Below are positions 306 through 30,256 of a stretch of DNA of 64,000 bases, piece by piece. This stretch comes from Debaryomyces hansenii CBS767. Lineage: Eukaryota; Ascomycota; Pichiomycetes; Serinales; Debaryomycetaceae. Position numbers and translations under genes: made by a program. The stretch covers positions 62,001 through 126,000 of the forward strand of contig NC_006047.2 of the NCBI RefSeq assembly GCF_000006445.2, given 5' to 3'. Positions within the stretch are counted from its first letter, which is position 1, and each line of letters opens with the position of its first letter. Below the pieces are notes generated by a model, which was given only the letters and a program-made list of their open reading frames with translations, ran no database searches and was not told where the DNA came from.

Positions 306-2165
306 CTATATGTTGCATAAAACTCTTTTCGAAATATTTTTTAAGTTCTCTAAATCAGTTTTATCTGGAAGCATTAAACTTTCAATCCATTGCAGTTTAG
401 AAAACATGGTTGTTTTTGGTTGACAATAGACAGCACATGCATACTTGACACTAGTATTCGAAGCAATAGAACCTATCAATTGTGGGAGCATCACCTTAGA
501 CGCCATGATATTGGTATTAGGTTCAGGTTTGGATACCTTAGGTTCTCTTGAACGTAAAAGATCAAACATAATGCTGGTGTCTTCTGAGGTTGATATTTCA
601 GCGTGTTTGCTACTGGTTGTATCCTCAAACGACTTATTATCTACTTCATTACTGAATGAAATAGGAAATCCACCTTCCCTAGTATGAACTTTTTCAGAGG
701 CATTATTTGTGATTTCATGTATTCTCAAATGATAGCTACCTTTCTGTAGTATCCAGGATTTTACTTCAATTTCAGGGTTAGGTGACCACTCTGAGTACAA
801 GCCTCCTTCGAAGATCCAAGATTTATGGTCTACTCTAACAAAAAAATCTCTCTTATTGAAACTGAAGCCAATCATATTGTCGATGCATGCAGAGGTGAAA
901 TCTCCGGAAGTGGTTCTTACGCCGAACCCATATCTAGTACTATAGGCAAATTTACTATATTTCTCACATTGATACTCATCATTCCAGGGCCCACTAACTA
1001 ATGCAATTGTGTTATCGTTATTATGAGAAATATGCATACCGACAACGTTTAAAGTTGCATCTTCTAAAGACAATGCTTCAATCTCTGCTGACCAAAATGG
1101 ATGTGATTCAGGTAGCATTTATGGAGCAAATGCTTTGAAAGCCCAATATGGAGATTGGGGAGAATTGTATCTTTCAGACATAAACATATTAGGATATGAA
1201 AACCCTACGGACAAAATTTCACTTCCAAATGTAGATATTGGCTGCTTTGACCACCATTGTAAATTTCTTAAATACAATCCTTTCAAAGTTCCCCAAGAAA
1301 TAAACGGGTCTTCTTTGGTATTTAATACGCATGGTAATATTCCCCAAAATGCAACAGCTGCAAATCTGTATGTCAAAGAACGACCGTATGGAAGTGACGC
1401 ACCGTTATCACTGAACCAATTTATGAACTGCTTCGCAAAAGATTTAGCTCTTTCTATATATCTAATAGATCTTACTGGATCTTCTTCACGCATTACAATC
1501 GCGTATATTATACCATAGAAATGAAATGCGTACGCATTGTAATAGTCAATTCTAAAGGATTTACCGTCGCCATACCAGCCATCTTCTAGATACATGGTTT
1601 CAATGTCTTGTAAATACTCTTCTGTCATATTATTATCATATTGAATTCCCACTTTTTTCAAGCCCAAATCGATTATAACTCTGAAAAATTTCCAATTATT
1701 ATGACAAAAGTCGCTACCTCTCACTTTAATCAAATAAATGGACAAATTTCTCTTGCCTTCATTTGTCAAAGGGTACCATGCGTATTCAGGTACAAAACAT
1801 AAAGCGAATCCAATTGCTGCAATATCTACTAAGGTCTGATCACAATTTTTAGGTTCACCCCAATATTCAGAATGATGCAAGTTCGTTCCATTTGTAAATC
1901 CTCTTCGATACAATTCCCAATGCTTGAATTCACCACCACCATAGACATATGGGACTACTCCCCATAAAGGTCTAGCAAAGCCTTCCAATTCTGCAGAATG
2001 GGAAGAAAATGATGCGCCAGATGCGGCCAATTTTACCCTTGCACCACCATCAGTAAAAGCTGTAACTATCGGTTCAAATAATTGATTCATACCTTTAGCC
2101 ACGTCATTTTTTGTTTGGAACGGATTTGAAGACCACACATTAAACTTTGATGTCTTTGCTTCCAT
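306..2165 (-). pseudogene. DUF2264 / GH154-like glycoside hydrolase interrupted by one in-frame TAA
   Basis: Two abutting minus-strand frames, 2165-1119 (348 aa) and 1118-306 (270 aa), are in the same phase. They are separated only by a TAA codon at 1121-1119, followed directly by ATG. Read through, they give about 619 residues, the normal length for DUF2264 proteins. The junction FKAFAP-stop-MLPESHPFW falls inside a conserved family stretch, where the missing residue is plausibly Leu (TTA to TAA). No signal peptide is seen, so a cytosolic enzyme is expected. DUF2264 corresponds, as far as I recall, to GH154, which includes beta-glucuronidases acting on arabinogalactan side chains. Both halves are otherwise clean, so the lesion is recent, a sequencing error, or tolerated by readthrough or restart at the following ATG. 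The family call is firm; the exact substrate is inferred from the neighbours. Confidence 0.75.
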
Positions 2166-2589
2166 TTTTTTTTTCTTATATAGAAAAAATTACTAGTTTC
2201 AGACTTCTGGGCATGCTTAAAATATTTATGCCTTGAATTGAAAAGTTGGTTCATACTCACTCACTTGCCGCCACCAAGGGTGGCCTAGATAGGACATCAC
2301 CTCTAGAATAAAATTTTGTAACTGAACCCCTCATTCAGCTACTAGACAAGAACTACTGTTATTGCTTGAGTAAAGATTAAATAATTTCAAAATCCTGTGC
2401 AGTTCAAGTACTTTTCAATCTTTGTGTGAAGTGTTCAGACATACTATTTTTGCAAGGCTTCACGAAACATACTTTAGCAGTTGCCATGAAATAACATACA
2501 TAGAGGTTCTTATAGATTTTTATTCAGAATATTCAAGGCAATATATAAGTCGAAAAATTAAACATAGAACCACCAATATAGTATTTGCT
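2166..2589. other. Promoter-side spacer of the DUF2264 gene
   Basis: This spacer lies between the start of the DUF2264 gene (2165) and the stop of the GH88 gene (2590), both on the minus strand. It contains a CCCCT (STRE-like, AGGGG on the other strand) at 2327-2331, about 165 bp upstream of the ATG. No gene was seen. Confidence 0.4.
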
Positions 2590-3825
2590 CTATTGGATTA
2601 AACCAAGCTGTAATAATTTATTTCCAATAGCTAGGAAATAATAGTCCGCATAAACTAGTCCATGATTTACCAATCTTTCGTAAGTATCTGGATTGTTATT
2701 TATTGTCGCATTAGCCAATATTGTATCCCTGTCACCAAGATCTACAGTCCCATCTTTTCTAAAGGAAGATTCGTTAGTATAAGCGAAACTAATGGTATTG
2801 GAGACAAGTTTCAATCCACTAATTAAATATTCAGAGTCATTTGTTGCTTCGTAAATCTTAATCAAGCCAAGAGCACAAATCATGGCAGCGGAAGTATCTT
2901 TAATGTCCTTGTCTGGTGCACCAAAATCCCAGGCTGGAACTCCATCGTCGGGCAATTTAGAAACAAAGTATTTAGCCAATCCAACCGATGCTTCTAAAAA
3001 CTTTCTTTGTTTGGTCCACGAGTATGTTTCAATAAACCCTAAAATGGCCCATGATTGCCCTCTAGACCAGGTTGTTTCATCAGCATAACCTTGATTGGTA
3101 ATTTTGGCTTTAACAGAGCCATCTTTCAAGTCATAATTTACAACATGGAAACTGGACCATTCAGGATCCCTAAAGTGATTCTTTAATGTTACTTCAGCAT
3201 GCGTTGTGGCTATAGTAGATAACCTTAAATCGCCTGTTTTACTTGCCACATAATACAACATATCCAAATTACACATATTATCAATGATGACAATAAAATC
3301 AGTATTTTTATTCGTAATGTTGTATCTCTTATTTACCGCAGAGTCCCAACTTCTAATACAACCAACGGTTTCATCAAACCTACTTGCAAGAGCTTCTGCG
3401 GCCGTCACTAAACAGTCGAAAGATCTAGAGCTTTTACTATATTCATATTCTCTTTGGAAAGCAGGTTGGATTATGAAACCTAAGTCATGTGTGTCTCGTC
3501 TGGGTGCTTGTTCAAACAACCCCTCTGCCCACCATCTTGCTGCATACTCTAACTTTGTCCGATCCACTTTATCTGTTGGAAACCTAGAAGGGTAATTGTT
3601 GCATCTTTCTAACAAACAGTATAGTGACCCAGGAAAGAACCCAGCTGTCCAATGGTCAATATCTCTAAACTGGTATCTACCGAAGGAATATTCTGGTGTC
3701 TTCTTCGGTGGTTTAGATTGATCTAAATATTCCACTGCCACACCCCAAATTTTAGCAATTGTGGAGTCACCATACAATTTATTTTCGATTTGTTGTAACT
3801 TTTTTTTTGCATCTGTTGCTGCCAT
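2590..3825 (-). CDS. GH88 unsaturated glucuronyl hydrolase
   Basis: A 411-residue protein with the alpha/alpha-barrel signature of GH88. Visible landmarks are HWTAGFFPGSLY (about 58-69), THDLGF with Asp114, and IDNMCNLDML with Asp182. The two aspartates match the catalytic pair of Bacillus unsaturated glucuronyl hydrolase (HDxGF and DNxxNL). Such enzymes hydrate and release the 4,5-unsaturated glucuronate that polysaccharide lyases leave on the non-reducing end, and the sugar opens to 4-deoxy-5-keto-uronate. No signal peptide is present, so it should act in the cytosol. It is divergently transcribed from the BNR_4 lyase-like gene at 4313 across a shared 487-bp promoter, which fits a lyase-then-hydrolase pair. 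GH105 is the nearest alternative, but the motifs favour GH88. Confidence 0.85.
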   Translation of the reverse strand: MAATDAKKKLQQIENKLYGDSTIAKIWGVAVEYLDQSKPPKKTPEYSFGRYQFRDIDHWTAGFFPGSLYCLLERCNNYPSRFPTDKVDRTKLEYAARWWAEGLFEQAPRRDTHDLGFIIQPAFQREYEYSKSSRSFDCLVTAAEALASRFDETVGCIRSWDSAVNKRYNITNKNTDFIVIIDNMCNLDMLYYVASKTGDLRLSTIATTHAEVTLKNHFRDPEWSSFHVVNYDLKDGSVKAKITNQGYADETTWSRGQSWAILGFIETYSWTKQRKFLEASVGLAKYFVSKLPDDGVPAWDFGAPDKDIKDTSAAMICALGLIKIYEATNDSEYLISGLKLVSNTISFAYTNESSFRKDGTVDLGDRDTILANATINNNPDTYERLVNHGLVYADYYFLAIGNKLLQLGLIQ

Positions 3826-4312: not shown

Positions 4313-5581
4313 ATGAGTATTGTAAATAATATAGAATTAGGGATAGATCCCAATGGCTGGCGAATCAATTGTTGTTCGTTCCAACAAGATGCAATTCTTA
4401 CCTTTGGAAGATATCAGTATGTATCTTTGTATGTTCCAAGCTACAAAGATGATCCTAGTAGTAGTAGAATGACAACAATCGGAAGAAGAAAGTTACCGGA
4501 TGGACAATGGAAGTTTTTAACTTTCAGGGATTACTACCAAATAAAAAATGACGGCCATAACATTATATCTATGGGCATTAGTGGTGACGGAATAATACAT
4601 ATGGCTTGGGATATGCATGGAGACGGTATTCACTATAGACAATCGAGAGAAAGATTAGCATTGTCTGAGACTGAAGAAGATTGGTGCATTTCATCTTTCG
4701 GCAAAGTGTTGGACTCATTACAGGGTCATGGTAAAGAATACGTCTTTCATGAAATCACATACCCAAGATTTTTGACTTTACCGTGTGGAGATATTCTTCT
4801 AGAATTTAGGGTTGGTAGGTCAGGACTTGGAGACGAATACCTTTATCGATTCTCAAGTACAACTCATACCTGGTATGAAGTAGTTACTCCATTAATTCAA
4901 GGTGTTGGAAATAACGCTTATATTCATGGACTTGACTACGGTACTGACAAAAAGCTACATATGAGCTGGACTTACCGTGATTTTATTGAAGACAGAGTTG
5001 GAGTTAATGATCGTGAAACCTCACAAGCTGGTCCAAATGGTCCTGAAAACAACCACGATTTACATTACGTATACTCGCCAGATGAAGGTTGTACTTGGTA
5101 CAACGGCAAACATGAGAAGTTAAATCTTCCTATTAATGTGTCTTCTCCGACTTTAGCTATTAAAATTCCAAAACATTCTGGAATAATGAACCAAGAGGGA
5201 CAATGTGTTGATGGCAACGGAGGATTTCATGTTCTCGGAAGAGAAAATGGTTATTATTTTCATTATTATCTTAACCCAATTAATGGACAATGGTTAAGAA
5301 GAAAGATTAACAATTACATAGGAAAATTATTTGGTGCCAGAGGGAAAATAGTTTGTCATAATTCGAATCCTAATGCTATACATGCCCTAATTCCATTGGA
5401 TGGAGAGAAATTTGTTATTTTAAGGTCACAGGTCCAAGATGAAAAGAATCTAATTTATAGTGGAAGTAACATTGATTGGAAAATACTACAAACTTTCGAA
5501 GGTTTAGATGGAGAACCATTATATGACCGATACCGAAAAGATAATATTATTTCTATTCTACAAAGGGTGGGAATACACTAG
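4313..5581 (+). CDS. BNR_4 beta-propeller protein, probable L-rhamnose-alpha-1,4-D-glucuronate lyase (PL42-like)
   Basis: A 422-residue protein with the full series of BNR_4 landmarks: IHMAWDMHGDGIHYRQS (95-111), TYPRFLTLPCGDILLEFR (149-166) followed by RSGLGDEY, NAYIHGLDY with HMSWTYRDF (201-224), NHDLHYVYSPDEGCTW (247-262), and MNQEGQCVDGNGGFHVL (292-308). BNR_4 includes ulvan lyases and, in fungi, the Fusarium gum-arabic enzyme that cleaves terminal rhamnose from glucuronate by elimination (PL42 as I recall). That activity would release L-rhamnose and leave an unsaturated glucuronate, which is the substrate of the GH88 encoded next door. It has no signal peptide. The fold is secure. The lyase specificity is inferred from the GH88 partner and the rhamnose pathway in the same locus; an ulvan-lyase-like or non-catalytic role is the alternative. 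Confidence 0.65.
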   Translation: MSIVNNIELGIDPNGWRINCCSFQQDAILTFGRYQYVSLYVPSYKDDPSSSRMTTIGRRKLPDGQWKFLTFRDYYQIKNDGHNIISMGISGDGIIHMAWDMHGDGIHYRQSRERLALSETEEDWCISSFGKVLDSLQGHGKEYVFHEITYPRFLTLPCGDILLEFRVGRSGLGDEYLYRFSSTTHTWYEVVTPLIQGVGNNAYIHGLDYGTDKKLHMSWTYRDFIEDRVGVNDRETSQAGPNGPENNHDLHYVYSPDEGCTWYNGKHEKLNLPINVSSPTLAIKIPKHSGIMNQEGQCVDGNGGFHVLGRENGYYFHYYLNPINGQWLRRKINNYIGKLFGARGKIVCHNSNPNAIHALIPLDGEKFVILRSQVQDEKNLIYSGSNIDWKILQTFEGLDGEPLYDRYRKDNIISILQRVGIH

Positions 5582-5994: not shown

Positions 5995-7527
5995 TTAAAC
6001 TTTTTCAATGTGTATTATTGATTCCTTCTCAATAATACTATCCTCATAAGAATGTTTTTCGTTTGGGTCAATAGGCTTACCTCTACTTGAGAATACTCCC
6101 CTAGTAATACCAGGTTTCTCGAAGATATGATCAATATCTTCTAATTCTAGTCCCTTAGTTTCTGGATAAAAGCAATAGATTATAGGTATCCAAACAGCGT
6201 TCAAAATGGCGAAAATTATAAAAGTCTTCCAACCAATATTATTAATGGATATAGGAGTAATTTGTACAACCGCAAAAACTGACAACCAGTTAAATGCTGA
6301 CCCTATAGCTTGATTTCTAGATCTTAGCCTTGTAACGTTGATTTCTGAAGGGTAAAACCAAGGTACTGGTAACCAACCAACTCCCATAAAAATTTGGTAT
6401 ATAAAGATAAAACATGCAGCACCCACACCACACCCATATGTCCCAATAGACAACAAAATGGAAACAACTATAAAACAAAAAGATAGTCCCGCTGAAGAGT
6501 ACAAGAGTAATGGCCTTCTTCCAAATCTTTCAACGGCCCAAAGTGGGAAGAAAGACGCTGCAAGATATACAATTTCCGTGCAGCCAGCAAGTATTAGTGA
6601 AGTGTTTCTACTTAATTTCATTGTAGATTGATAAACAACTGGGGCATAGTAATTTATCATATTTGAACCAGTAAATTGTTGCATTATCATTATACCTATG
6701 GTCAATAGTAACCTTCTAAAATTTTGAATGTCACCACCTCCAAAAAGTTCTTTGAATTGAAAAGGGCCTCCGGCGCCTTCTAATTCAACCGCTTTCTCTA
6801 TTTCATCTTTTTCATAAATGACTACCCGATCATTCACATCCTTATCCAAAATAGCAGCCAAAACCTGCGTAGCTTCCGCTTTACGGTTTTTGGTTACCAA
6901 CCAACGGGGTGTTTCTGGTAACAAGAATGTTTCTAAAGTAAGACTAATTGCAAAAATACCTTGAAATGCTACTGGGAACCTCCATTGAAAAGGACTTTCT
7001 GTATAAGATGTACCATACCCTACCCAGTAGGCTATTACTACACCGAAAATTGTCACAACTGCTTGCCAAGTTAGCATGGAGCCTCTGTTAGAAGCTAGAG
7101 CACACTCAGACTGATATACAGGTATAGTTGACGAATTGAAACCATTTCCAATACCAGTAATAATTCTACCTGCATAAAATTGGCCTCTTGACTGAGATGC
7201 TGCTAATATGATAGTTCCTATTATCATAATCAACCCCCCACAAAACATCATTGATCTTCTACCATACTTTTCGCCAATAAAAAAACATATAATTGACCCC
7301 CCAACACAACCCAAATCGTATACGGATGTCAATAAACCTTGTACCGTAGAGTCAGGATGGTTGAAATCACGACCGAACCTATTATCTGCTCCTATAATGG
7401 TACCCATTAAGCCCTGGTCGTAACCAAGCAATAAAAAGCCAGTGCAGGAACAAAATGTAATCAAAAGCCGTAAATTTTTTCCGTAGCATATTATTTTAGA
7501 AGTCCCAAACATCTTGAAGCTTATCAT
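5995..7527 (-). CDS. MFS sugar transporter
   Basis: A 510-residue, twelve-helix major facilitator of the sugar porter family. Visible signatures are GYDQGLMGTIIG in helix 1, GEKYGRRSM between helices 2 and 3, PETPRWLVTKNRKAEA before the central loop, QQFTGSNMINYYAP in helix 7, ERFGRRPLLL, and PETKGLELEDID after helix 12. ATG at 7527 and a second Met codon at 7512 are both usable starts. It sits between the lyase/GH88 pair and the short-chain dehydrogenase. Its substrate is probably a monosaccharide or small uronate product of this locus, such as L-rhamnose or glucuronate; that is inference, since sequence alone cannot tell. Its upstream region holds TCCCCCC (7691-7697) and a TTCGTATGA box (8045). 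Confidence 0.85.
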   Translation of the reverse strand: MISFKMFGTSKIICYGKNLRLLITFCSCTGFLLLGYDQGLMGTIIGADNRFGRDFNHPDSTVQGLLTSVYDLGCVGGSIICFFIGEKYGRRSMMFCGGLIMIIGTIILAASQSRGQFYAGRIITGIGNGFNSSTIPVYQSECALASNRGSMLTWQAVVTIFGVVIAYWVGYGTSYTESPFQWRFPVAFQGIFAISLTLETFLLPETPRWLVTKNRKAEATQVLAAILDKDVNDRVVIYEKDEIEKAVELEGAGGPFQFKELFGGGDIQNFRRLLLTIGIMIMQQFTGSNMINYYAPVVYQSTMKLSRNTSLILAGCTEIVYLAASFFPLWAVERFGRRPLLLYSSAGLSFCFIVVSILLSIGTYGCGVGAACFIFIYQIFMGVGWLPVPWFYPSEINVTRLRSRNQAIGSAFNWLSVFAVVQITPISINNIGWKTFIIFAILNAVWIPIIYCFYPETKGLELEDIDHIFEKPGITRGVFSSRGKPIDPNEKHSYEDSIIEKESIIHIEKV

Positions 7528-8450: not shown

Positions 8451-9206
8451 ATGACATTGATACTCAAAGGTAAGGTTGCATTAATCACTGGGGGTAGTGC
8501 AGGGCTAGGAGCTGCAGTTGCTCGTCAATTGGCTGCTGAAGGTGTTAATTTAGCAATCAATTACAACAATTCCGAGGAAAGAGCACTGAAAGTCGCTGAA
8601 TCACTTGCATCTGAGTTTGGAATTAAAACTGTGATTATAAAGGGAGACATATTTGATACATCAGTAGGCTCAAAATTAGTAAGTGAGACTGTCAATAAAT
8701 TAGGAGGCCTTGATATAGTTATTTCAAATGCAGGCTGGACTAAAATTGTTCCATACGACGATTTGGAAGCATTGGACGACGAGTTATGGGATGGGTGTTT
8801 TAATGTTAATGTCAAAGCTCATTTCTACTTGTTTAAAGCAGCCAAGAAGATATTCGATCAAAATGAGGATGGAGGTACCTTTATTGTATCTGCGTCAGTA
8901 GCTGGGAGAATTGTGTATGGTTCTAGTATACCATATGCAGTAAGCAAAGCAGCATTAATCCATCTTGTCAAAATGCTTTCAAAAACTCAAGGACCAAAGG
9001 TGCGTATGCACGCAGTTTGTCCAGGTCTTTTAATGACAGAATGGGGGCAAAGATTCTCCCCAGAGAGAATAGAAGATACCAAAAATATGTCCCCAATTAA
9101 TACATTAGCAGATGTGGATGAGACGGCTGCGCAATTTGTCTTACTATCAAAACTTACTACCACTACGGGATCAATTGTCTCGATGGATGGTGGTATTTCT
9201 ATTTAG
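8451..9206 (+). CDS. Short-chain dehydrogenase/reductase, candidate deoxy-keto-uronate reductase
   Basis: A 251-residue classical SDR. It has the TGGSAGLG cofactor loop near residue 14, NAG in the core, and catalytic Ser followed by YAVSK about 165 residues in, ending in DGGISI. It is not a close copy of the LRA1 protein, which differs in the NAD loop and C-terminus. Position suggests a task beyond rhamnose oxidation. GH88 activity yields 4-deoxy-5-keto-uronate, and in bacteria that sugar is reduced by SDRs of the KduD or DEH-reductase kind. This gene is the only unassigned reductase in the locus, so it is a candidate for that step. The fold is certain; the substrate is inference. Confidence 0.8.
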   Translation: MTLILKGKVALITGGSAGLGAAVARQLAAEGVNLAINYNNSEERALKVAESLASEFGIKTVIIKGDIFDTSVGSKLVSETVNKLGGLDIVISNAGWTKIVPYDDLEALDDELWDGCFNVNVKAHFYLFKAAKKIFDQNEDGGTFIVSASVAGRIVYGSSIPYAVSKAALIHLVKMLSKTQGPKVRMHAVCPGLLMTEWGQRFSPERIEDTKNMSPINTLADVDETAAQFVLLSKLTTTTGSIVSMDGGISI

Positions 9207-10983: not shown

Positions 10984-11673
10984 CAGTAACTGTTTTGCTT
11001 TGAAGTGATTGAAATTTGCATTTCTACCTAACGAAATGGTCGATTTAAGTAATGAGAGTTGCCCCACTTGACTTTGACATTTTTGCACTGCGCACGAAGA
11101 ATGGAATGGGGAAATAAATTCGATGGCACAAATTATTAACTCGACGTCGTCCATTGATTGTGGTCTATACACACTTCAGCGAGCATTGAACTATATCGTA
11201 CTTAAATTATGTAAGTTTATGATTCCTTCCTTTGAACCATTTTTCGCTTTCTACTATACGTGTACGAGCGATAGAATATTCTTATAAGATATTTCCATTT
11301 TTTAATTGATGACGCATCATTGATCCCCCGAGTGATCTTTCCGGGTTCGTTTTGCTGTACCATATTCCATTCTTAAATTGTACTCTAAAATTTGTATTAC
11401 TTTTTCAACTTCTATTACGACACAAATAGGTCAAATATAAAAACACGTATTAACCAACAAAATCTGAGATCATGAGGTAATTGTTGGTTTTCTAGAGTAA
11501 ACTATTGTTCTTCAAAAAAAAAATAATGCGGTGCTACATAATAGGATTCGCAATAAAAATTGCAAGATCAGAAAACACCTTTCCACCGAATTGCGGGGCA
11601 GAAATAATAGACTTTTTCAATCCATTTTGAAAATTGAATAATTTATCGGAGGATTTGAATCTTATTAGATACT
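10984..11673. promoter_or_regulatory. Divergent promoter of CYB2 and the Zn2Cys6 regulator
   Basis: This spacer between two head-to-head genes is about 500-690 bp, depending on the CYB2 start. It contains GATCCCCCGAGTGATC at 11322-11337, in which TCCCCC matches the G-tracts before the two carriers of this locus. No further gene is supported. Confidence 0.4.
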
Positions 11674-16225: not shown

Positions 16226-16816
16226 ATGTCCATTGATGCATGTTATAAATTTTGGTCTTCTGAAAGGCTTGCGTTCTTCTTAGTTGTAAGAGGATGTGAC
16301 TTTCCAAATGGATTAACAAGGGAAGAATTGGAGGGTATGGTAAGGGAAAAGGCTAAAGTCCCAATTTTAAAAGTACCAGTAAACGAGACAACACTTAGGC
16401 AATTAATTCCTGATCAATTAATTACCTGGTTGTTTTTTAGAGGTTACGTGGTAACTCCAAAAGCCAAGCCAATGCTAATGGTTCCCGAGGAAAATACTGT
16501 TCCTAACTATAAAGAGTTTTTAAGAGTCGCAAATAAGGATTATAAAGAAAAGATTTCTAATATGGATGAAGCTAGTGCTTTGGAGATAAAGTACCAATTA
16601 GCTAAAATTCTAACAACCAAATATGCGTTTTTGCTTGAACCTACTGAAGACTGGAATTTCATGGAACATCGTTACCGCTCTAAAGACTTGGACATCATTT
16701 TAGAGTTATTCGGAGTCTATGATGATGATGATTCCAAAGTTAAATGCGCGGAATTATTAACCAAACAAGATTTGGCTAAGAGAAGTGTAGATTTTTTTGC
16801 TACTGGGAATTTATAG
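16226..16816 (+). CDS. Hypothetical protein with SAP/Ish1-like N-terminal segment
   Basis: 196 residues, not recognised. The first 45 residues (YKFWSSERLAFFLVVRGCDFPNG...EELEGMV) have the spacing of a SAP- or Ish1-type helix-extended-helix motif, with Trp, a Leu/Phe helix, Arg-Gly and Pro before a second helix. The rest is charged and helical with no membrane segment or signal peptide. It shares a 325-bp promoter, with the TTCGGATCA element, with the oligosaccharide-type carrier. It may therefore be co-regulated with the locus, or may simply be an unrelated resident. No enzymatic role is suggested. Confidence 0.6.
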   Translation: MSIDACYKFWSSERLAFFLVVRGCDFPNGLTREELEGMVREKAKVPILKVPVNETTLRQLIPDQLITWLFFRGYVVTPKAKPMLMVPEENTVPNYKEFLRVANKDYKEKISNMDEASALEIKYQLAKILTTKYAFLLEPTEDWNFMEHRYRSKDLDIILELFGVYDDDDSKVKCAELLTKQDLAKRSVDFFATGNL

Positions 16817-20247: not shown

Positions 20248-21355
20248 ATGAAAATCTCAAACTTTTTTATTGTGTCAATTTTTGCAGCAAATACGCTCGC
20301 TTCCCAAGTCAAAAACGAAAAGCACCATGATATCAACCATTTTGGATTTAGGGAACGTTACATATGGCGGTTTATTTTACAACATTAAAGGTGATTAATC
20401 CAAGCTCATTCAGGAGGGATTTATCATGATGACCACTCAAGGGCCTTCTACCTATATGGTAATGATTTTATAAATGCAAATAAGAGTGATCCATTGAGGC
20501 TGTAAATTTGTAGAAGTCAAGAGATTTAGTCAATTGGGAATTTGTCAGTGTCTTGGTTACACCTGATAGTTACGGTTGGAATGAATCCAATGGGGGGAGT
20601 GAGACAGAATGCTCCTAGTTTGTAGTCTTAGAACGTCCAAAAATTTATTTCAACAAACATACCCACAAATACGTAACGTATGAATACACGTTACTGATAG
20701 TGAGTATAATAATAGCATGCTTGGTGTTGCTATTTCTAATGACCCTTGAAAAAGGTTGGAAGTTTGCTAAGTGTTACAAAGCAGGAGGATTAAAATCATG
20801 GGATGTGGGACTCTATGTTGATGACGACGAAGAAAGTTCTGTCTATTGATCTACTCTTCTAATGCTAATGGAAAAGGTACAAATGGTTCCTTAAGAATTT
20901 CGAAGTTAACGATTGATGGTTTGAGCATTGAAATTAAAGACGTTGCGACTGGAAGAGGTCGGTTAGAATCACCTGTTGTGTTTAAACAAGATGGAAGATA
21001 CACTATGATTGTATCACACACCAGTGGTTGGGCAAGCAACGATGATGTCTATGTACAAGCCTACGATATAGCAGAATTAATGAACCGAACATTCTCAGAT
21101 TTTCTTGCACCAGAAGGTACAAATACTTTTGAGTCCCAATGTCATTATGCTTTTCCATTATCGGGTACACTTGGCTATTATTCAAATTTTGTTTATATGG
21201 GTGATAGGTACATTAATCCAAGTTTAGACAATTCTGAATATTTTTGGGCACCAATCAAAGTGACTAACTCTGGAGTTTCATTAATGGATGCCCATACATG
21301 GAAGTACAAAAATAAAGAGTTTACCACTGACGGAAGCTGGAATCATACAACCTAG
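20248..21355 (+). pseudogene. Degraded secreted GH43 (subfamily 24-like) exo-beta-1,3-galactanase
   Basis: ATG at 20248 opens a clear signal peptide (MKISNFFIVSIFAANTLAS), after which the frame fails. The remaining pieces lie in order in different frames: IQAHSGGIYHDDHSRAFYLYG (from 20398), a stretch with SRDLVNWEFV, then ERPKIYFNKHTHKYV. The last is a clean 169-codon tail (20846-21355) with LESPVVFKQDGRYTMIVSHTSGWASND and YMGDRYINP. These match the layout of fungal GH43_24 exo-beta-1,3-galactanases, which erode the galactan backbone of arabinogalactan proteins. At least four frameshifts or stops make it non-functional. It is the only enzyme of the locus with a secretion signal. Confidence 0.8.
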
Positions 21356-21595: not shown

Positions 21596-22831
21596 TTAAA
21601 CTAAGTCTTTTTCTTTATTCTTATCTTCAGTATGATCTGCGGATCCTTCAGGCTTAAATAAACCGGCATCCGTACCATATTCAAGAGCTTCATCACCAGC
21701 CCTATATCCACGAGTAACGTCCTCGCCAAAAACTTGTGCAACTTCTTCTAAACCTAGGCCCTTTGTTTCTGGGAATATCCAATATACAATGTTCATTTGA
21801 AAGATTAACCAAATACACCATACGATGTAATATTTCCATTTTATAGCATCCATTGCAATAGGATTCACAGTTATTAAAGAAGCCGACTACGTTTCCTGAA
21901 AGTTGGTAAAGTGTTGCACCTTGGCCTCTCAAGAGGAATGGACATACTTCCACTACATAAGTCAGAGAAACAGGTGCAACTATATTGTTAAAGCCCATGA
22001 AGAGGTATATCATAGCAACAATTCCTCTCCCTATCCCTTATTCTTAAATCCAGATTGTCGATTAATTGCAGATAAAATAGTCCAACCGACATATGAGATA
22101 CACATAAGAATATAGCCACCCATAAACATAGTTTTCCGTTTAAATTTATCTACGTTTAACGCAGATAATATAGACCAGCATAATGCATAAACCGTCATAC
22201 CAATATCTATTTTGAGCTGATCGTTACTGTTTGTAGTGCCAATGTTCCTTAGCACAATTTCCAAATAGTAAGAAATAAGTGCATTTCCACAAATCTGGGC
22301 CATTGCAGGAACAGCCAACACTATGAATAGCCTTCGAAGATTTTGCTTAGATTGAAACCATTCGGTCCACTTACTTTTCCGCTGTTCCTTGTCTTGTTCT
22401 ATAATTGCTTTAATTTCTCTCGAAGTTGACTAACGGGCTACTTGCATCTACACCGGTATGGTACTTGATAAAGAGCTTCTCCGCTTCATCACTTCTACCC
22501 TTGTTGATCAACCACCTTGGTGATTCTGGTCGAAAGAACTCAAATACTATAGATACACCATTTGTCATGGTACCTAAGCGACTTCCTGTAGGATTTTCGA
22601 AGTATTCTCTCCAACTCTCGGAAGCGTCTGCAAATTATTCATCATACTACCATCGTATCCTGATGTAACTTGAGCCAAAATGCCACCAAGAAGATGAGAA
22701 ATATTTAATTGAAACAACCATGGATACTTAAACCATATTTTTTCAAGCTTGGGTGTAACATCTGCTAAAGTGTGCTGTGGCACATCATCCACCTCATTTG
22801 TTTCTACCTTGTGAAATGTTTTAGTATTCAT
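21596..22831 (-). pseudogene. Degraded MFS sugar carrier (lactose-permease-like)
   Basis: ATG at 22831 begins an N-terminus with SGYDGSMMNNLQ (helix 1). A deletion has then removed roughly helices 2-5. Reading resumes near 22570 with a PESPRWLINKGRSDEAEKLF-type stretch, a central loop ending WTEWFQSKQNLRR, helices 7-9 (22321-22031), MGFNNIVAPVSLTYVVEVCPFLLRGQG in another frame (22013 on), and a PETKGLGLEEVAQVFG tail to 21596. At least three frameshifts and a large deletion are needed to explain this. The closest type I recognise is the fungal LAC12/lactose permease group, that is, a disaccharide carrier, which would fit an oligosaccharide locus. The retroelement piece begins only about 50 bp upstream of its ATG. 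Confidence 0.8.
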
Positions 22832-22880
22832 ACCAATTCAAAATTTTCCCTACGTTTGCTTAACATTTAGATTTATATGA

Positions 22881-24758
22881 GAAACCACGGAAAGGTCTGT
22901 GATAGACAAGGGTAAGAGTAAACTTCAAGAATCGTTGTTCATCTTTCCGGTAAAGATAAGGAATAAAGAAAGCAGAGCTTTAATAGATTCCGGAGCACAA
23001 AGTAATTTCATTACCCCAGAGTTGGTAGAAGAATTGAAATTAGAAATAGAAATAGCACCAGAAGTAGTATTAACTACTGTGACCGGTGAAACAAAGAAAA
23101 CAAATAGAAAAGTTTTATTGGAATTAGAGATAGGTAAAGAATTAGTAGAAGTTCAGTTTTATGTTGCTACATTTAAACACCCTATCATTTTAGGAAGACC
23201 GTTTACCAAGATACACGAGAAGGATATCGTGAATGATACTGTATTTGGAGTACAAAATTGTGAAAAAGAAGCAAAGTCACAAACGACAGAATATGTAGAT
23301 TCTAACCAGTTTTTAAGAGATATCAGACCTCAGAAGGCAGATATAGGAATGTTTTACATTACGGAAGAAACTCAAGAGAGAGATAAGGAAGTACCTGAGT
23401 TTATAACATCAGAGTTTAGAGTTACAAACAAGAAACTAGAGAAAGTATCAGAGTTTAAAAAGGTAACTCATAAAATACATCTTATTCCAGGAGCAAAACC
23501 TAAGGCCAGACCACCTTATAGGGTGTCTCAGTTTGAAATAGAAGAGCTTAAAAAGCAAATTGAAGAATTGTTGAATAAAGGATTCATACAAAAATCCAAT
23601 TCACCATTTGCAGCTCCTGTTTTATTCAATAAAAAGAAAGATAAAACACTACGATTATGTGTCGATTTTAGATTATTGAATATCGATACCATAAGGAATG
23701 CATTCCCTATACCAATAATAGAAGATTTATTTATGAAAATAGGAAACGCTAAAGTATTTTCCAAATTAGATTTAACATCAGGATATTTTCAAATTAGAAT
23801 GGATCCAAAAGATGAGGAAAAAACAGGGTTTATTACACCATTTGGGCACTACGAATGGAAAGTAATGCCATTCGGAGTAGTAAATGGCCCTGCTACATTT
23901 CAATCGTTTATGAATGAAATATTAGAAAATACACAGAATGTGTTAGTTTATCTTGATGACATATTAATTTATAGTCATACTGAAGATGAACATGAAAGAG
24001 ATATAAGAAGAGTATTACAAATTTTACGTGAGAACAAATTGATTGCAAAAGAAAAGAAATGTGAATTCTTTAAGAATACATTAGATTTCTTAGGGCATAC
24101 AATTACACCAAATGGTATCATACCTAATGATGAAAAGATTAAAGATATCATTAAGTGGCCAAAACCACAGAATGCTAAAGAAGCAATGAGGTTTATGGGT
24201 TTATGTAATTATTACAGAAAATTTGTGCCAGGGTTTTCCAAAATAAGTGCACCCATTAATGAATTTATGGCAGATCATTGCAGTTGGCAAGAAGATCAAG
24301 ATAAAGCATTTGAAATATTAAAAGAAAAGATGACAACTCATCCTGTACTAGTATTACCTGATTTCACGAAAGAATTCGGATTGACGACAGATGCGTCAGA
24401 TACAGCCATTGGATCTACATTGGAACAAGTAGATGAAAAAGGAAAGTTAATTGGAGTTATTGGTTATTTCTCAAAGAAATTAATAGCAGCTCAATTAAAC
24501 TACTTTGTTATGGAAAAAGAGTTTTTAGCAATTATTGAAAGTTTAAAACACTTCAGATCAATATTGTATGGAAGGAGATTTGTACTTAGATCAGATCATC
24601 TAAGTTTAACATATATTATGTCACAAGGAAAAGTACCTCAGAATAGAATAGCAAGATGGTTAGATTTCTTATCGGAATATGATTTTGAAATACAACATAT
24701 TTCAGGAACGAAGAATAATGCAGCAGATGCATTATCAAGAATAGGAATTAAGATGTAA
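22881..24758 (+). mobile_element. Ty3/gypsy-type retrotransposon fragment: protease, reverse transcriptase, RNase H
   Basis: One unbroken frame of about 625 codons. Domains in order: aspartic protease (LIDSGAQSNFIT, about 30 codons in), reverse transcriptase (LRLCVDFRLLN, LDLTSGYFQIRM, MPFGVVNGPATFQ, and the active site VYLDDILIYS), and RNase H (TTDASDTAIGS through NAADALSRIG). There is no in-frame ATG at the 5' end (the frame is open from 22881 and its first plausible start codon is GTG), no gag upstream, and no integrase in the kilobase downstream. It is therefore truncated at both ends, yet its reading frame is intact. Flanking long terminal repeats were not seen. It lies against the start of the broken carrier gene and probably removed that gene's promoter. 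Confidence 0.85.
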
Positions 24759-25743: not shown

Positions 25744-26703
25744 ATGAGTGCACCATTACCACCACCACCACCACCACCACCACCATCACCACCACTACGG
25801 GGTATTTATACTCCTATTCCAACCTTTTTCAAAAAGGATTTAGTGACTATTGACTTTAACAGCCAGGTTAAACATGCTAAATTTTTAAAGGAGAGTGGAA
25901 TAACTGGTTTAGTTGTAATGGGATCAACTGGTGAAAATTCACATTTGACTCGTCAGGAAAGATTTTCCATCATTTCAAAACTCCATAGCGAATTGCCTGA
26001 TTTCACTTTGATAGGTGGTGTCGCGCAAAATAGCGTTGAAGATGCCTTAGACGAAATTGATTCTGTCAAAAAAGCCGGGGCAAAATATGCTGTTGTGTTA
26101 CCTAGTAATTACTTCGGGGCTTCTATTGAACAAGATGGTATCTTCGACTGGTATACGGAAGTTGCAAATAAATCATCTTTGCCAATATTAATTTATGTTT
26201 ATCCTGGTGTGTCTAATAACATTTTTATTGATCCTAAGACTATCAAAACATTATCTTATAATCCAAATATTGTAGGTACTAAGATTTCACACGGAGATGT
26301 GTCACACCATACACTAATTGGTTTGGATGAAGATATTGCTAACAATAACTTCAGTTGCTTTACTGGTTTGGGTCAGATATTACTCCCGGCCTTAGTAGTT
26401 GGCTTTAAGGGAACTATCGATGCATTGAGTGGGGCGACTCCAAAGATTTATATTGAAATTTTAAATTTATACAACAAGGGAGAATTAAAAAATGCTGCTC
26501 AACTACAACTTGTTGCCACTAGAGGTGAGGAGTTGGTTGTAAAGTTCGGAGTGATTGGTATTAAAAAGGCTATTTTAGCAGCAACTGGAATAGGTGAGAC
26601 TCATTTAGGTCGTGCTCCACTAAATCAAGATATTTCCGAAGCTGATTGGAACCAATACAGTGCCCACCTTTCTGAACTAATTAGTATAGAAATGACCTTG
26701 TAG
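25744..26703 (+). CDS. LRA4: L-2-keto-3-deoxyrhamnonate aldolase, DHDPS/NAL family
   Basis: 319 residues of the dihydrodipicolinate synthase / N-acetylneuraminate lyase fold. Visible elements are GSTGEN (60-65), the Tyr motif IYVYPG with Tyr151, and the Schiff-base Lys180 in IVGTKISHGD. In the yeast non-phosphorylated rhamnose pathway the last step splits L-2-keto-3-deoxyrhamnonate to pyruvate and L-lactaldehyde, and the gene is grouped here with LRA1-3, so this role is likely. It might also accept 2-keto-3-deoxygluconate from the uronate branch. The N-terminus is unusual: nine consecutive prolines plus SPP, encoded by a CCA microsatellite, ahead of the family's normal start at RGIYTPIPTFF. 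The gene symbol rests on context and fold. Confidence 0.8.
   Translation: MSAPLPPPPPPPPPSPPLRGIYTPIPTFFKKDLVTIDFNSQVKHAKFLKESGITGLVVMGSTGENSHLTRQERFSIISKLHSELPDFTLIGGVAQNSVEDALDEIDSVKKAGAKYAVVLPSNYFGASIEQDGIFDWYTEVANKSSLPILIYVYPGVSNNIFIDPKTIKTLSYNPNIVGTKISHGDVSHHTLIGLDEDIANNNFSCFTGLGQILLPALVVGFKGTIDALSGATPKIYIEILNLYNKGELKNAAQLQLVATRGEELVVKFGVIGIKKAILAATGIGETHLGRAPLNQDISEADWNQYSAHLSELISIEMTL
25757..25796 (+). repeat. CCA microsatellite at the start of LRA4
   Basis: Nine consecutive CCA codons, then TCA CCA CCA, encode a polyproline run just after the initiator Met. Slippage-prone tracts of this kind can vary in length between strains. Confidence 0.85.
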
Positions 26704-26879: not shown

Positions 26880-27902
26880 ATGCCTTCAAAAAAATATAAA
26901 ATTATAGATTCACATGTTCATTTATTTGCAAAACGAAACTTTAAACTATTGAAATTTGATGAAGCCCACCCATTGCATTCAGATTTTCGTCTAGATGAAT
27001 ACTTAAAATATTCAATGAATGAAGAGTTCCAAATTGATGGATTGGTTTTTATTGAGACTGACCCAATTGCTGATTTATCAAAGGCACTTGAAGGGTGTGA
27101 ATACCCCATTCAAGAATATCTTTATGTAGCTAGAAATATTACTGGAAACTTACTACCAGACGAAGGGGAAACGTCAGAGTTAAAACAGAATTTTATTAAG
27201 GCAATTGTACCATGGGCTCCAATGCCTTTGGGAAAGAGCCTGGTAAGTAGTTATGTTGAAATGTTAAAGAGTAGATCTCTGACTGATGAATTTAATTTGG
27301 TGAAAGGTTTCCGGTATTTAGTTCAGGATAAACTCCCAAATACTATGCTACAGAGAGATTTTGTTGAATCTTTAAAATGGTTGGATGATAATAATTTCAT
27401 ATTTGACTGGGGTATCGATTTGAGATGTGGTGGTTTATGGCAATTTGAAGAAACTATTGAAGTTCTCAAGCAAGTTCCTAATTTAAAATATGTTATTAAC
27501 CATTTGACAAAGCCAAACTTGAGTATTGACCCAACAAAGATTGAAGAAAACGACGAGTTTCTTCAATGGAAAAATTATATGAAACAAATCTTTGTCAATT
27601 CTCCGAACTCTTATATGAAATTATCCGGAGGCTTTTCAGAGTTACCGTCTGAAATAATTGAAAATAGGGATAAATGTGCTGAATATATCTATCCTTGGTT
27701 CAAAGTTTGTTTTGATCTTTGGAATGTCGATAGAACAATATGGGCAAGTAATTGGCCTGTTTGCACTCTTACTGCCGGTGAAGACTTGACATCAAAGTGG
27801 TTTGAAGTTACCGAAATGTTATTTGATAAAATTGAATTAAATGAAGAATCGAGGAAGAAAATCTATGGTACTAATTATTTAAAAGCGTATAATCTTATAT
27901 AA
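26880..27902 (+). CDS. LRA2: L-rhamnono-gamma-lactonase, amidohydrolase family
   Basis: 340 residues of the amidohydrolase-2 (PF04909-type) fold. The N-terminal metal motif is DSHVHLF (10-16), a conserved His lies in NHLTKP, and the closing strand RTIWASNWPVC carries the family's usual W-x-SNWP near residue 285. It hydrolyses L-rhamnono-1,4-lactone to L-rhamnonate, the second step of the pathway. It follows LRA4 on the same strand after 176 bp and faces LRA1 with only 17 bp between stop codons. There is no targeting signal. The assignment rests on fold plus cluster membership and agrees with the S. stipitis and D. hansenii clusters. Confidence 0.85.
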   Translation: MPSKKYKIIDSHVHLFAKRNFKLLKFDEAHPLHSDFRLDEYLKYSMNEEFQIDGLVFIETDPIADLSKALEGCEYPIQEYLYVARNITGNLLPDEGETSELKQNFIKAIVPWAPMPLGKSLVSSYVEMLKSRSLTDEFNLVKGFRYLVQDKLPNTMLQRDFVESLKWLDDNNFIFDWGIDLRCGGLWQFEETIEVLKQVPNLKYVINHLTKPNLSIDPTKIEENDEFLQWKNYMKQIFVNSPNSYMKLSGGFSELPSEIIENRDKCAEYIYPWFKVCFDLWNVDRTIWASNWPVCTLTAGEDLTSKWFEVTEMLFDKIELNEESRKKIYGTNYLKAYNLI

Positions 27903-27919
27903 CTATTTATGCACTGTCA

Positions 27920-28684
27920 TCATTGTAAATTGACAAAGAGACCGCCATCAACCAATAATTGCGCACCGTTTACATATTTTGAAAGATCACTCGCCAAGAA
28001 GACTGAAGGACCTGCCATATCTTCAGGTTCGCCTAGTCTTGTTAAAGGAATACGGTTTTCCATATATTTCTTTTTTTCATCATTACTTAAATCTTCACCA
28101 TTTAAGGCTGTTTTAATGGTCCCAGGCAAGAGCGCATTACATCTAATACCGTATGGTCCTAATGCACAAGCAGTAGATTGGATAATAGATAATATTCCAG
28201 CTTTCGTTGGAGTATAATGTGCCTGATAGGCGCCCCCAACTAAAGCTGAAATACTACTGATTCCAATAATACTGCCTCCCTTTCCTTGTTTTTTCATCTG
28301 TTTAGCAGCAGCTTGGATAGAAAAAAATGCTCCATTTAGATTTATGTCGATCGTTTTATAATATGTCTCAGGTTCAATCTCCGTAAATTCTTTAAACTCA
28401 CATATTCCAGCATTCGATACAAAAACATTGATTTCATGAAATTTCTCAACTGTTCTGACAATTAATTCTTCACAATTTTCGGGCTTCGATATATCTCCAG
28501 CAACACCTAAAAATTTATCTTCACCAATTTCCTCTTGTAAGGATTTAACTAGCTCCAGTTGATTTGGTAAGTGGTTAACAACAACGTTAGCCCCATTTTT
28601 CGCCATACCAATCGCAATAGCACGACCAATCCCAGTCACTCCGCCTGTTATAGCTACAGTTTTTCCCTCTAATAAGCCATACAT
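27920..28684 (-). CDS. LRA1: L-rhamnose 1-dehydrogenase, SDR family
   Basis: 254 residues, a classical SDR with TGGVTGIG (13-20), NAG (91-93), Ser144 and YTPTK (Tyr157, Lys161), closing with VDGGLFVNLQ. It oxidises L-rhamnose to L-rhamnono-lactone, the entry step of the non-phosphorylated route. Its promoter (28685-28957) is compact and carries two shared elements: TTCGGATCATTTCCTAAA at 28774 and the inverse of GTTCGTATGA at 28815. The 3' end almost touches LRA2. The symbol is supported by the complete LRA set around it. Confidence 0.88.
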   Translation of the reverse strand: MYGLLEGKTVAITGGVTGIGRAIAIGMAKNGANVVVNHLPNQLELVKSLQEEIGEDKFLGVAGDISKPENCEELIVRTVEKFHEINVFVSNAGICEFKEFTEIEPETYYKTIDINLNGAFFSIQAAAKQMKKQGKGGSIIGISSISALVGGAYQAHYTPTKAGILSIIQSTACALGPYGIRCNALLPGTIKTALNGEDLSNDEKKKYMENRIPLTRLGEPEDMAGPSVFLASDLSKYVNGAQLLVDGGLFVNLQ

Positions 28685-28773
28685 ATTTACTGCTTAGTTC
28701 TAATACTGTAGATGGCGATTTGATTCTTACTTATAGTCGATATGCAAAATGCTAATAGTTTATGCGATCGGAC

Positions 28774-28791
28774 TTCGGATCATTTCCTAAA
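28774..28791 (+). promoter_or_regulatory. TTCGGATCAwTTCC element in LRA1 promoter
   Basis: TTCGGATCATTTCCTAAA, one base different from the element at 16078-16095. It lies 90-107 bp upstream of the LRA1 ATG. Confidence 0.5.
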
Positions 28792-28814
28792 TCGGAATAG
28801 AATATTCACAATGT

Positions 28815-28824
28815 TCATACGAAC
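28815..28824 (-). promoter_or_regulatory. GTTCGTATGA box in LRA1 promoter
   Basis: Exact ten-base match, inverted, to the box at 30382-30391 before LRA3. The two boxes sit at nearly the same distance (131 and 126 bp) from their ATGs. Confidence 0.4.
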
Positions 28825-28957
28825 GAATAGTCTCACTTCCAATATCCTTATTAGCTCTTAGTAGTAGCTACATTATTACTTATTAATTTCATTAATAGCT
28901 TGTAACGTGTATTAGATATTATAGACTAACTGCATAAATTTATAGATTGCTTACTAT

Positions 28958-30256
28958 CTACTTAGCTGTTCCATTGGCCTTACCATTAGAATATCCATTT
29001 TTATGTCCATTTGCATTTCCATCAGCCAATTTTAATGGTTTCTCTGGTGCAGGAGATAATAAGAAGTCAGCATCAATCAATTCTATTTTTGGATTCAACG
29101 TTAATCCAAAACCTGGCTTATCGAATGTAGAAACATCAAGATATCCGTTTACTGGAACTGGTTCATCAGTAAATAATCCGCCAAATACTGGCAAAACAGA
29201 TGTAGAGTCAGGAGAGTTCGCCAAATATTCCTGGAATGGAGTATTTTGCTGAGAAACAACAAAATGATATGAGTATGGACCAGATGCATGTGGTACAACT
29301 GGAATATCATAAGCAGCAGCTTGGGCAGCGACTTTAAGAATTTCAGTTAATCCCCCAACCCACATAACGTCAGGTTGCAAAATATCGATATTACGGCCTT
29401 CAATCAACTTTCTAAAGCCATATCTAGTATATTCATGTTCACCAGTAGTCCATTTAATTCTAGGAAAAGCTCTCTTTAACTGGGCATAACCTTCGATATC
29501 GTCTGGGTGTAATACTTCTTCAAACCAGTTAATATTCAAATCTTCAGTCGCCTTGGCCAAATCAATTGCATACAGAACATTCAAAGACATATAACAGTCA
29601 ACCATCAATGGAAAGTCTGGGCCAACCTTCTCGCGATGATCCCTTAAGAACTTAACGTTCTTTTGTAACCCTTTGTGACCTTCATCTGGCCCGTATGGCA
29701 AAGCAACTTTACCACCCCAGAATCCCATTTCTTTTGCGGCTTCTGGTTTCGAACCAGTACAGTAGAATTCTAATTTGTCTCTAGTAGCACCTCCAATTAA
29801 TTTATAAACCGGTTCATTTCTGATCTTCCCCATCAAATCCCAAAGAGCTAAATCAATAACACTAATAACGGCAATTGTGATACCTTTACGTCCATAAAAC
29901 ATAGAAGCCCTAAACATTTTATCCCACAAAATATTAATATCCCTTGGATCAGCCTCTTCTAAGAATCTTAAGAAATGATTCTGAACCATCCAACATGCTG
30001 GTGGGCCACCAAAACCTGTAGCAAACCCACGGGTACCATCTGTAGCCTCAATTTCTACGCAAAATGAACCCAAGACATTAATACCCCAGCTAACTCTTGA
30101 AGAGCGATATTCCGGAAATTTTGACATAGGATTTGATATGGAATTATCAATTAACCAATGACCTCTCTCAACATTGTGGTAATCACCGCCAATTCCTTTT
30201 CCATTTAAAATGTAGGTCTTGACAGATTTGATTTTTGGAAATTCTTTAACAGACAT
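28958..30256 (-). CDS. LRA3: L-rhamnonate dehydratase, enolase superfamily
   Basis: 432 residues. The mandelate-racemase-type barrel shows metal ligands Asp220 (MVDCYMS), Glu246 (WFEEVLHP) and Glu273 (TTGEHEYT), with the catalytic His323 in VVPHASGPYS. The TPFQEYL and DEPVPVNGYLDVS stretches match bacterial rhamnonate dehydratases closely. It dehydrates L-rhamnonate to L-2-keto-3-deoxyrhamnonate. A hydrophilic tail after the barrel, rich in Asn/Gly/Lys (NGHKNGYSNGKANGTAK), is not part of the fold. The promoter carries a Mig1-type site and the GTTCGTATGA box. Confidence 0.9.
   Translation of the reverse strand: MSVKEFPKIKSVKTYILNGKGIGGDYHNVERGHWLIDNSISNPMSKFPEYRSSRVSWGINVLGSFCVEIEATDGTRGFATGFGGPPACWMVQNHFLRFLEEADPRDINILWDKMFRASMFYGRKGITIAVISVIDLALWDLMGKIRNEPVYKLIGGATRDKLEFYCTGSKPEAAKEMGFWGGKVALPYGPDEGHKGLQKNVKFLRDHREKVGPDFPLMVDCYMSLNVLYAIDLAKATEDLNINWFEEVLHPDDIEGYAQLKRAFPRIKWTTGEHEYTRYGFRKLIEGRNIDILQPDVMWVGGLTEILKVAAQAAAYDIPVVPHASGPYSYHFVVSQQNTPFQEYLANSPDSTSVLPVFGGLFTDEPVPVNGYLDVSTFDKPGFGLTLNPKIELIDADFLLSPAPEKPLKLADGNANGHKNGYSNGKANGTAK

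Follow-up and report, generated by a model that had tools for sequence, protein, structure and literature searches.

From the genome of Debaryomyces hansenii CBS767 (12,181,948 bases, 8 contigs) we analyzed a stretch of 64,000 nucleotides, here called the window (C5:62001-126000; C5 is contig NC_006047.2, of 2,007,515 bases, and C2 to C7 are contigs of this same genome). Positions are those of the window unless a contig is prefixed (C2:, C3:, C4:, C5:, C7:). Yeasts of this clade read CTG as serine, so translation was mostly done with table 12; proteins were assigned to families by Pfam, NCBIfam and sequence searches against solved structures (PDB). Near the chromosome end, a cluster of about 44 kb (C5:48-92 kb, or window -13.6 to 30.3 kb) carries genes for glycan-cleaving enzymes, sugar carriers, regulators and L-rhamnose catabolism (Table 1). 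A preliminary description of the window had listed its genes, and the searches bore out that list and its coordinates. Within the window the cluster appears to join two modules, since the genes of one, which would act on glucuronides, recur elsewhere in the genome; the other is the yeast rhamnose module. Papers are cited by PMC number and are represented by excerpts.

The BNR_4 gene is the single match of its kind in the whole genome. Its closest solved relatives are three sequences of FoRham1, a lyase of family PL42 from Fusarium oxysporum, in six entries (7esl and 7esk, around 1e-67), followed by four other BNR_4-type sequences, the best at 4e-28. In the counted part of the alignment with FoRham1, 153 of 366 positions are identical (42%). 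Neutron diffraction provided 11 residues around the FoRham1 active site (PMC10951650), and ten are kept in the yeast protein: Asp83, His85, His105, Tyr150, Arg166, Tyr202, Arg220, Asn275, Gln276 and Arg331 (FoRham1 numbers). The only change is Tyr26 to Phe. With the BNR_4 propeller, the Asp83-His85-His105 triad, Arg166, Tyr150 and Tyr202 all identical, the protein is, as judged from its sequence, a PL42-like lyase of rhamnose-alpha-1,4-glucuronic acid (Rha-alpha-1,4-GlcA). Its gene is divergent from that of a GH88-like unsaturated glucuronyl hydrolase (UGL), 0.5 kb away. A lyase for arabinogalactan caps adjoining a GH88, together with a GH78 and the LRA pathway, had been proposed before, and the active site (10/11), the GH88-like match to 3wiw (E 5e-39) and the GH78 match to 8hmm (E 1e-100) agree with it.

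Pfam placed the BNR_4 and DUF2264 proteins as the preliminary description had them. The GH88-like protein had no Pfam family at 1e-3, PF07470 included, and was placed instead by eight solved GH88/UGL sequences. Its HDxGF and xIID motifs, which we take to hold the GH88 catalytic aspartate pair, align with those of 3wiw and are present in all 5 uninterrupted GH88 copies of the genome. Four of these lie outside the window (53-59% identity), as does one relic; one of the C3 copies has no Pfam match at 0.01 either.

The GH154 gene reads in one frame from 2165 to 306, through DUF2264 and DUF2264_C, and is interrupted at 1119-1121 by one TAA codon. The first open reading frame (ORF) spans positions 1-336 of the 353 of the profile, and eight of eight alignable active-site residues of the dehydratase BcGDH are identical (N176, N177, W178, F181, Y229, R285, Y289 and Y354), so that the product, though shortened, may still be active or may have lost its function. 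E74 and R78 of BcGDH fall outside the printed alignment, and an E-x3-R motif is present by eye. Four uninterrupted copies, on C2, C3 (two) and C4, each keep seven of these eight residues, with Cys for N176, and are 49-52% identical to the part beyond the TAA (306..1118).

BcGDH introduces a 4,5-double bond into terminal GlcA, and GH88 then removes the sugar (PMC12269599). In the excerpts of this 2025 study, dehydratase activity is shown for two members, the founding member BT3677 slowly dehydrates methyl-glucuronide, a model glucuronide, and the whole of GH154 is proposed to be beta-glucuronate dehydratases, often encoded beside GH88 and GH105. A similar arrangement recurs here, where a GH88-like gene or relic lies less than 3 kb from four of the five GH154 genes (at 0.4 kb on C5, at about 2.8 and 0.3 kb on C3 and, for the relic, at 0.5 kb on C4). 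The C2 copy has no GH88-like relative among the ORFs of the 30 kb around it. This exceeds what chance would give: when 5 and 6 points were placed at random on one line of genome length, neither of two runs of 20,000 placements reached 4/5 within 5 kb, the maximum being 2; the pairs are not independent events, because block duplication could have produced them. The separate hydrolase route ending in GH154 that had been suggested is thus doubtful on the dehydratase work (PMC12269599). We also considered GH154 as a beta-glucuronidase branch and judged this less likely, given that work and the pairing with GH88. With GH154 proposed as a dehydratase, not a hydrolase, the two routes for removing the cap probably converge on GH88.

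Table 1. Features of the cluster in the window and to its left (prefix C5:)
Feature	Position	Strand	Support or remark
GH154/DUF2264 catalytic domain (proposed glucuronate dehydratase family)	1119..2165	-	348-residue ORF ending in TAA; PF10022 E 3e-111 over 1122-2165
DUF2264_C domain, same frame beyond TAA, otherwise open	306..1118	-	PF20938 E 2e-24
GH88-like unsaturated glucuronyl hydrolase	2590..3825	-	PDB 3wiw E 5e-39 and seven more GH88/UGL sequences
PL42-like L-rhamnose-alpha-1,4-D-glucuronate lyase (BNR_4)	4313..5581	+	Pfam BNR_4 E 5e-71; PDB 7esl E 1e-67
Sugar porter of the major facilitator superfamily (MFS), intact	5995..7527	-	PF00083 E 1e-103
Short-chain dehydrogenase/reductase (SDR), candidate DEH reductase or L-KDR dehydrogenase (see text)	8451..9206	+	PF13561/PF00106
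CYB2, flavocytochrome b2-like L-lactate dehydrogenase	9307..11154	-	FMN_dh and Cyt-b5
Zn2Cys6 regulator, two exons, intron 11837-11891	11674..13987	+	Fungal_trans; RhaR/TRC1-type by position
MFS sugar porter, intact, other family than 5995-7527	14281..15900	-	PF00083 E 2e-69
GH78 alpha-L-rhamnosidase	17229..19214	+	Bac_rhamnosid6H; PDB 8hmm E 1e-100, 8iwd E 5e-95
GH43_24-like exo-beta-1,3-galactanase relic	20248..21355	+	7bys E 1e-15 for piece 20849-21352
Broken sugar porter	21596..22837	-	tblastn to C5:60005-61669 carrier, 60-90% identity in pieces
Ty3-like pol fragment (protease, reverse transcriptase, RNase H), outside pathway	22881..24758	+	Pfam
LRA4-like L-2-keto-3-deoxyrhamnonate aldolase, dihydrodipicolinate synthase (DHDPS) fold	25744..26703	+	PF00701 E 2e-34
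LRA2-like lactonase (amidohydrolase 2)	26880..27902	+	PF04909 E 4e-15
LRA1-like L-rhamnose 1-dehydrogenase (SDR)	27920..28684	-	best NCBIfam RhamDHLra1, 362 bits, cut-off 400
LRA3 L-rhamnonate dehydratase	28958..30256	-	NCBIfam NF011968, 521 bits, cut-off 393
Sugar porter, intact	C5:60005-61669		relative of broken window carrier
C2H2 regulator	C5:56850-59540
DHDPS-type aldolase, second KDG/KDR-type	C5:54761-55711		42% identity to LRA4
Zn2Cys6 regulator paralogue	C5:52253-54454		50% to window regulator
PL4 relic	C5:50109-51927		PL4 domain III at 2e-19 in one piece
GH105	C5:48357-49475		E 1e-146 to solved 3pmm; only genome match

The rhamnose module has LRA1, LRA2, LRA3, LRA4 and a Zn2Cys6 regulator together, as expected of the yeast LRA cluster. 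Only LRA3 passed a specific curated NCBIfam cut-off; LRA1 is just below its own, and there is none for LRA2 and LRA4. The Lys and Tyr described as catalytic in LRA4 aldolases (PMC4891683) appear kept by eye in the alignment of the aldolases. Relatives of LRA4 were found at C5:54767, C3:1563918 and C7:1585516 (42-43%); a further match, at C3:156343, is weak. GH78 has one further match in the genome, a very weak one (E 2e-4); our literature search found no paper for its solved relative 8iwd. In the regulator, the six-cysteine motif sits in exon 1, upstream of the 55-base intron. Of 63 CGG/CCG spacings tried as a shared regulator motif, the best class, CCG-N5-CGG (4/18 cluster promoters against 3/71 others, with a single divergent promoter counted for two of the four), is unconvincing once the number of tests is considered. 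We also rejected a longer motif common to the PL42/GH88 promoter and C3, which on C3 falls within a coding region.

The window SDR found no family above its cut-off among the best 25 of 219 NCBIfam families, no function was singled out by the best 60 of 615 PDB sequences, and its best other match in the genome is 33% identical. CYB2, which has a second gene of its type on C4 (50% identity), would suit the step that follows L-lactate; none of the cluster proteins scanned was recognised as a lactaldehyde dehydrogenase. The two intact window carriers are only 24% identical to each other. Further sugar porters, at 31894-33531, 46454-48091 and C2:1268376-1270007, share 65-75% mutual identity, and the C2 one adjoins the GH154 gene of that contig. 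Bacterial polysaccharide utilisation loci (PULs) are marked by a SusC/SusD pair. The likeness to such loci that had been seen here fails on this mark, as the carriers are MFS porters and no SusC/D family was found among the 30 sequences scanned.

Several ORFs around the rhamnose genes were noted in passing. A 196-residue ORF lies at 16226-16816 (+), between carrier and GH78. Past LRA3, a TauD/TfdA-family dioxygenase (37505-38746, -) perhaps serves sulfonate or sulfate-ester use, an amino acid permease (35221-36686, -) is apparently split across two overlapping frames with a Pfam match on 35221-36045 only, and a longer permease-like ORF was seen by eye beyond it, at 44516-46057.

The cluster had been taken for an arabinogalactan locus of about 30 kb. 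Its cap enzymes and galactanase relic support the substrate, whereas the extent does not hold, for GH105 and a PL4 relic extend the locus some 14 kb beyond the left edge of the window. Carrier, aldolase, paralogous regulator, PL4 relic and GH105 look, from their families, like a rhamnogalacturonan set, and because of them rhamnogalacturonan is no less likely than arabinogalactan to be the substrate.

Related genes lie in sister loci. At C3:1555347-1571772, within 33 kb of the contig end, the order is GH154, carrier, GH88, zinc dehydrogenase, aldolase, a hydrolase of the fumarylacetoacetate hydrolase (FAH) family, GH154 and GH88, with a third GH88 further out at 1583538. The zinc dehydrogenase is closest to the aldehyde reductase Ahr, and the FAH-family hydrolase to a pair of families that includes 2,4-didehydro-3-deoxy-L-rhamnonate hydrolase, all below cut-off. 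The second aldolase is about 5 kb from GH105 on C5; one relative is 2.6 kb from a GH88 on C3, and another is on C7. The C5:60005 carrier has further relatives on C4 (51%) and in the C3 locus, where the carrier is spread over two overlapping frames. On C4, a heavily broken GH88 relic (84753-85915) lies directly beside an uninterrupted GH154 (86379-88304), and at C2:1266005-1275450 a GH154 stands beside sugar porters, a GH31 enzyme and a C2H2-type regulator, named by its likeness to C5:56850. As a separate observation, ORFs at C5:9940-10935, C4:45983-46894 and C4:58365-59246 are about 96% identical across the two chromosomes and probably represent a mobile or subtelomeric repeat.

Two relics derive from enzymes that would have opened polymers. 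The GH43 relic, whose subfamily number, 24, we assume from the preliminary description, has 14-31 stops per frame, and its piece 20849-21352 matches 7bys (galactan 1,3-beta-galactosidase) at E 1e-15 over 143 residues, which agrees with the exo-beta-1,3-galactanase relic reported before; it has no Pfam match at 0.01 and no other match in the genome. Next to it, the broken window porter has 14-28 stops per frame and matches in several pieces and frames. The Ty3-like fragment separates this transporter relic from LRA4.

Protein starts were scored by a simple N-terminal hydrophobicity measure. Both depolymerase relics (GH43_24 and PL4) begin in a signal-peptide-like manner (2.10 and 2.39, as against 2.69 and 2.86 for two secreted-type controls), whereas the five wholly or largely open glycan-cleaving enzymes (PL42, GH88, GH154, GH78 and GH105) do not. 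Among the 12 other cluster enzymes scanned, 11 score 0.29-1.82. The measure is not clean, because CYB2, a mitochondrial enzyme, scores 2.46 from its first ATG. Apart from CYB2, one of the 11 non-relic enzymes is interrupted (GH154). With three broken genes distributed at random over these 13, the two secreted ones would both be hit in 3/78 cases, by hand arithmetic done after the fact.

Taken together, we consider it probable, from gene families and conserved residues, that the locus is a cytosolic scavenging cluster that imports short rhamnosyl-uronate oligosaccharides, from arabinogalactan caps and rhamnogalacturonan, and degrades them with a bacterial-style uronate route. Imported fragments would be digested in the cytosol. 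At the cap, PL42 would split Rha-alpha-1,4-GlcA into rhamnose and 4,5-unsaturated GlcA; alternatively, GH78 would hydrolyse off the rhamnose, and GH154 would produce that unsaturated sugar by dehydrating the GlcA so uncovered. Next, GH88 would cut off unsaturated GlcA, so that both branches would give 4-deoxy-5-hexosulose uronate (DEH). For pectin, PL4, now a relic, may once have opened rhamnogalacturonan, GH105 would remove unsaturated galacturonic acid to yield the same DEH, and GH78 would free rhamnose. The rhamnose would pass through LRA1-4 to pyruvate and L-lactaldehyde, the latter being oxidised to L-lactate and then by CYB2 to pyruvate. DEH would probably be reduced, here by the window SDR and in the C3 locus by the zinc dehydrogenase, and its product split by the second DHDPS-type aldolase. 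The SDR might instead be an L-2-keto-3-deoxyrhamnonate (L-KDR) dehydrogenase of the LRA5 type, an enzyme considered in PMC5674754; together with an FAH hydrolase of the LRA6 type it would likewise yield L-lactate. The families and active-site residues are read from sequence; substrates, flux and the DEH step we infer.

A more far-reaching proposition can be put forward only tentatively, as a whole: that beta-linked GlcA is removed without a glucuronidase, by cytosolic GH154 and then GH88, with DEH reduced and split by a DHDPS-type aldolase into pyruvate and glyceraldehyde; that this eukaryotic uronate pathway recurs in several loci close to chromosome ends and is connected here with rhamnose catabolism through PL42; and that the secreted polymer-opening enzymes decayed, the cytosolic ones being mostly kept, as in a scavenger of fragments made by its neighbours.

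A number of observations weigh against the scavenging route. No DEH reductase was identifiable by family, the sister loci contain nothing related to the window SDR at E 1e-20, and the aldolases lack a fitting specific NCBIfam label. The window GH154 gene is interrupted; the dehydratase reading of its family is recent, the activity of BT3677 is low, and two members were first reported as exo-hydrolases (told in PMC12269599). Among NCBIfam families the GH105 protein scores best with beta-galactosidase BglB, narrowly above the cut-off (428 bits, cut-off 420), and for another piece of the PL4 relic the solved structures gave no match. A comparison of 18 cluster promoters with 71 others over 63 CGG/CCG spacings revealed no common promoter motif. 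A prokaryote scan gave 3 distant PL42 relatives, none with adjoining GH88, GH154 or GH78 and none near a match to 11 other cluster proteins (E 1e-4), the third locus being only 3.6 kb long. Moreover, the strain may be unable to open the two polymers on its own, because the only GH43_24-like gene found and PL4 are relics.

Of the other explanations, the one with most in its favour is that we are dealing mainly with a locus for rhamnogalacturonan-I, in which a RhaR-type regulon has been gathered (PL4, GH105, GH78, LRA1-4 and two regulators) and PL42, GH88 and GH154 are side activities on glucuronate side chains. It is favoured by the genes beyond the left edge of the window (aldolase, paralogous regulator, PL4 relic and GH105) and by the fall of GH78, GH105 and PL4 genes in Aspergillus niger mutants of the rhamnose pathway and regulator (PMC5674754). 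We nevertheless regard it as unlikely: PL4 is broken, the GH43_24 relic points to beta-1,3-galactan, and FoRham1, with which the yeast lyase shares nearly the whole active site, is described as specific for gum arabic with its best efficiency on Rha-GlcA (PMC8377490). A chance abutment is far less probable still. In that case the known yeast rhamnose cluster (regulator, MFS, GH78, LRA1-4) would have come to lie against a glucuronide module (carrier, GH154, GH88) in a fast-rearranging chromosome end, with PL42 as a passenger. It would account for the positions near contig ends, for the several relics and the Ty3-like fragment in between, and for the presence of GH154, GH88 and a related carrier on C3 and on C4 (where the parts are about 40 kb apart) with no relative of LRA1-3 or GH78 among the ORFs of the stretches examined; but the chemistry of PL42 links both modules, as it would free rhamnose and make the substrate of GH88, from which it is divergently placed at close range.

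Ulvan also contains Rha-alpha-1,4-GlcA, its rhamnose is sulfated, and this yeast is common in the sea. A locus for ulvan would suit that linkage and habitat, and PL42 shares a His-His-Asp triad with the ulvan lyases PL24/PL25 (PMC10951650), while fungal GH78 and GH105 have been linked to ulvan (PMC8351168). Against this, the genome has five matches to the sulfatase family (four above cut-off, the one strong match on C6), none of them in these loci, FoRham1 is exo-acting and the GH43_24 relic does not fit; the excerpt of a paper on Ulva fermentation holds no statement that D. hansenii uses ulvan. We therefore rate an ulvan locus as the most improbable of these explanations, by a hair.

The cytosolic scavenging cluster can be compared with several known systems. 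FoRham1 (PMC8377490, PMC10951650) shares with the yeast lyase the level of identity given above, the triad, the neutralising Arg, the Tyr and the substrate residues; it is described in a mature, leader-cleaved form, unlike the yeast protein, which has no signal-like start and has Phe for Tyr26. In the chondroitin PUL of Bacteroides caccae, BcGDH and BcGH88 likewise pair a GH154-family dehydratase with GH88 (PMC12269599), whereas the yeast pair is predicted to be cytosolic, is tied to rhamnose genes and has an extra C-terminal domain on GH154. Under one regulator, A. niger RhaR, stand GH78, GH105, PL4 and rhamnose catabolism (PMC5674754), but the genes of these carbohydrate-active enzymes have scattered numbers, and no PL42, GH88 or GH154 is mentioned in the excerpts.

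Further parallels are the yeast rhamnose clusters. A 2008 JBC paper on eukaryotic rhamnose clusters reportedly covers D. hansenii. Scheffersomyces stipitis has LRA1-4 with the Zn2Cys6 regulator TRC1 (PMC2784038, PMC5674754), and Candida auris groups LRA1-4 and RhaR with an MFS carrier and an alpha-L-rhamnosidase (PMC11326119). The excerpts mention no PL42, GH88, GH154, GH105 or PL4 for either. For the combined locus, lyase and GH88 included, no description in yeast had been known; as regards LRA genes, MFS carrier, rhamnosidase and RhaR the claim is weakened by C. auris, and it appears to hold for PL42, GH88 and GH154. No earlier description of the combination was found among the titles listed in the openly licensed literature. 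What the locus adds to the known cluster is PL42, GH88 and GH154, together with the second aldolase and the carrier that belongs with them.

The proposed uronate route resembles the bacterial pathway from unsaturated uronate through DEH and 2-keto-3-deoxygluconate (KDG) to pyruvate, except that bacterial KDG is phosphorylated and the aldolase proposed here is of the non-phosphorylating type (PMC6353982). In its excerpts this review lists fungal and animal hexuronate routes, with no native eukaryotic DEH-KDG route among them, and describes the bacterial one as engineered into Saccharomyces cerevisiae. If our reading is true, a yeast uronate route would stand outside that list, and the locus would be a case in which secreted enzymes were lost while private cytosolic ones stayed. 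A budding yeast would then pair the known rhamnose cluster with the lyase and dehydratase chemistry of a mould lyase and of gut bacteria.

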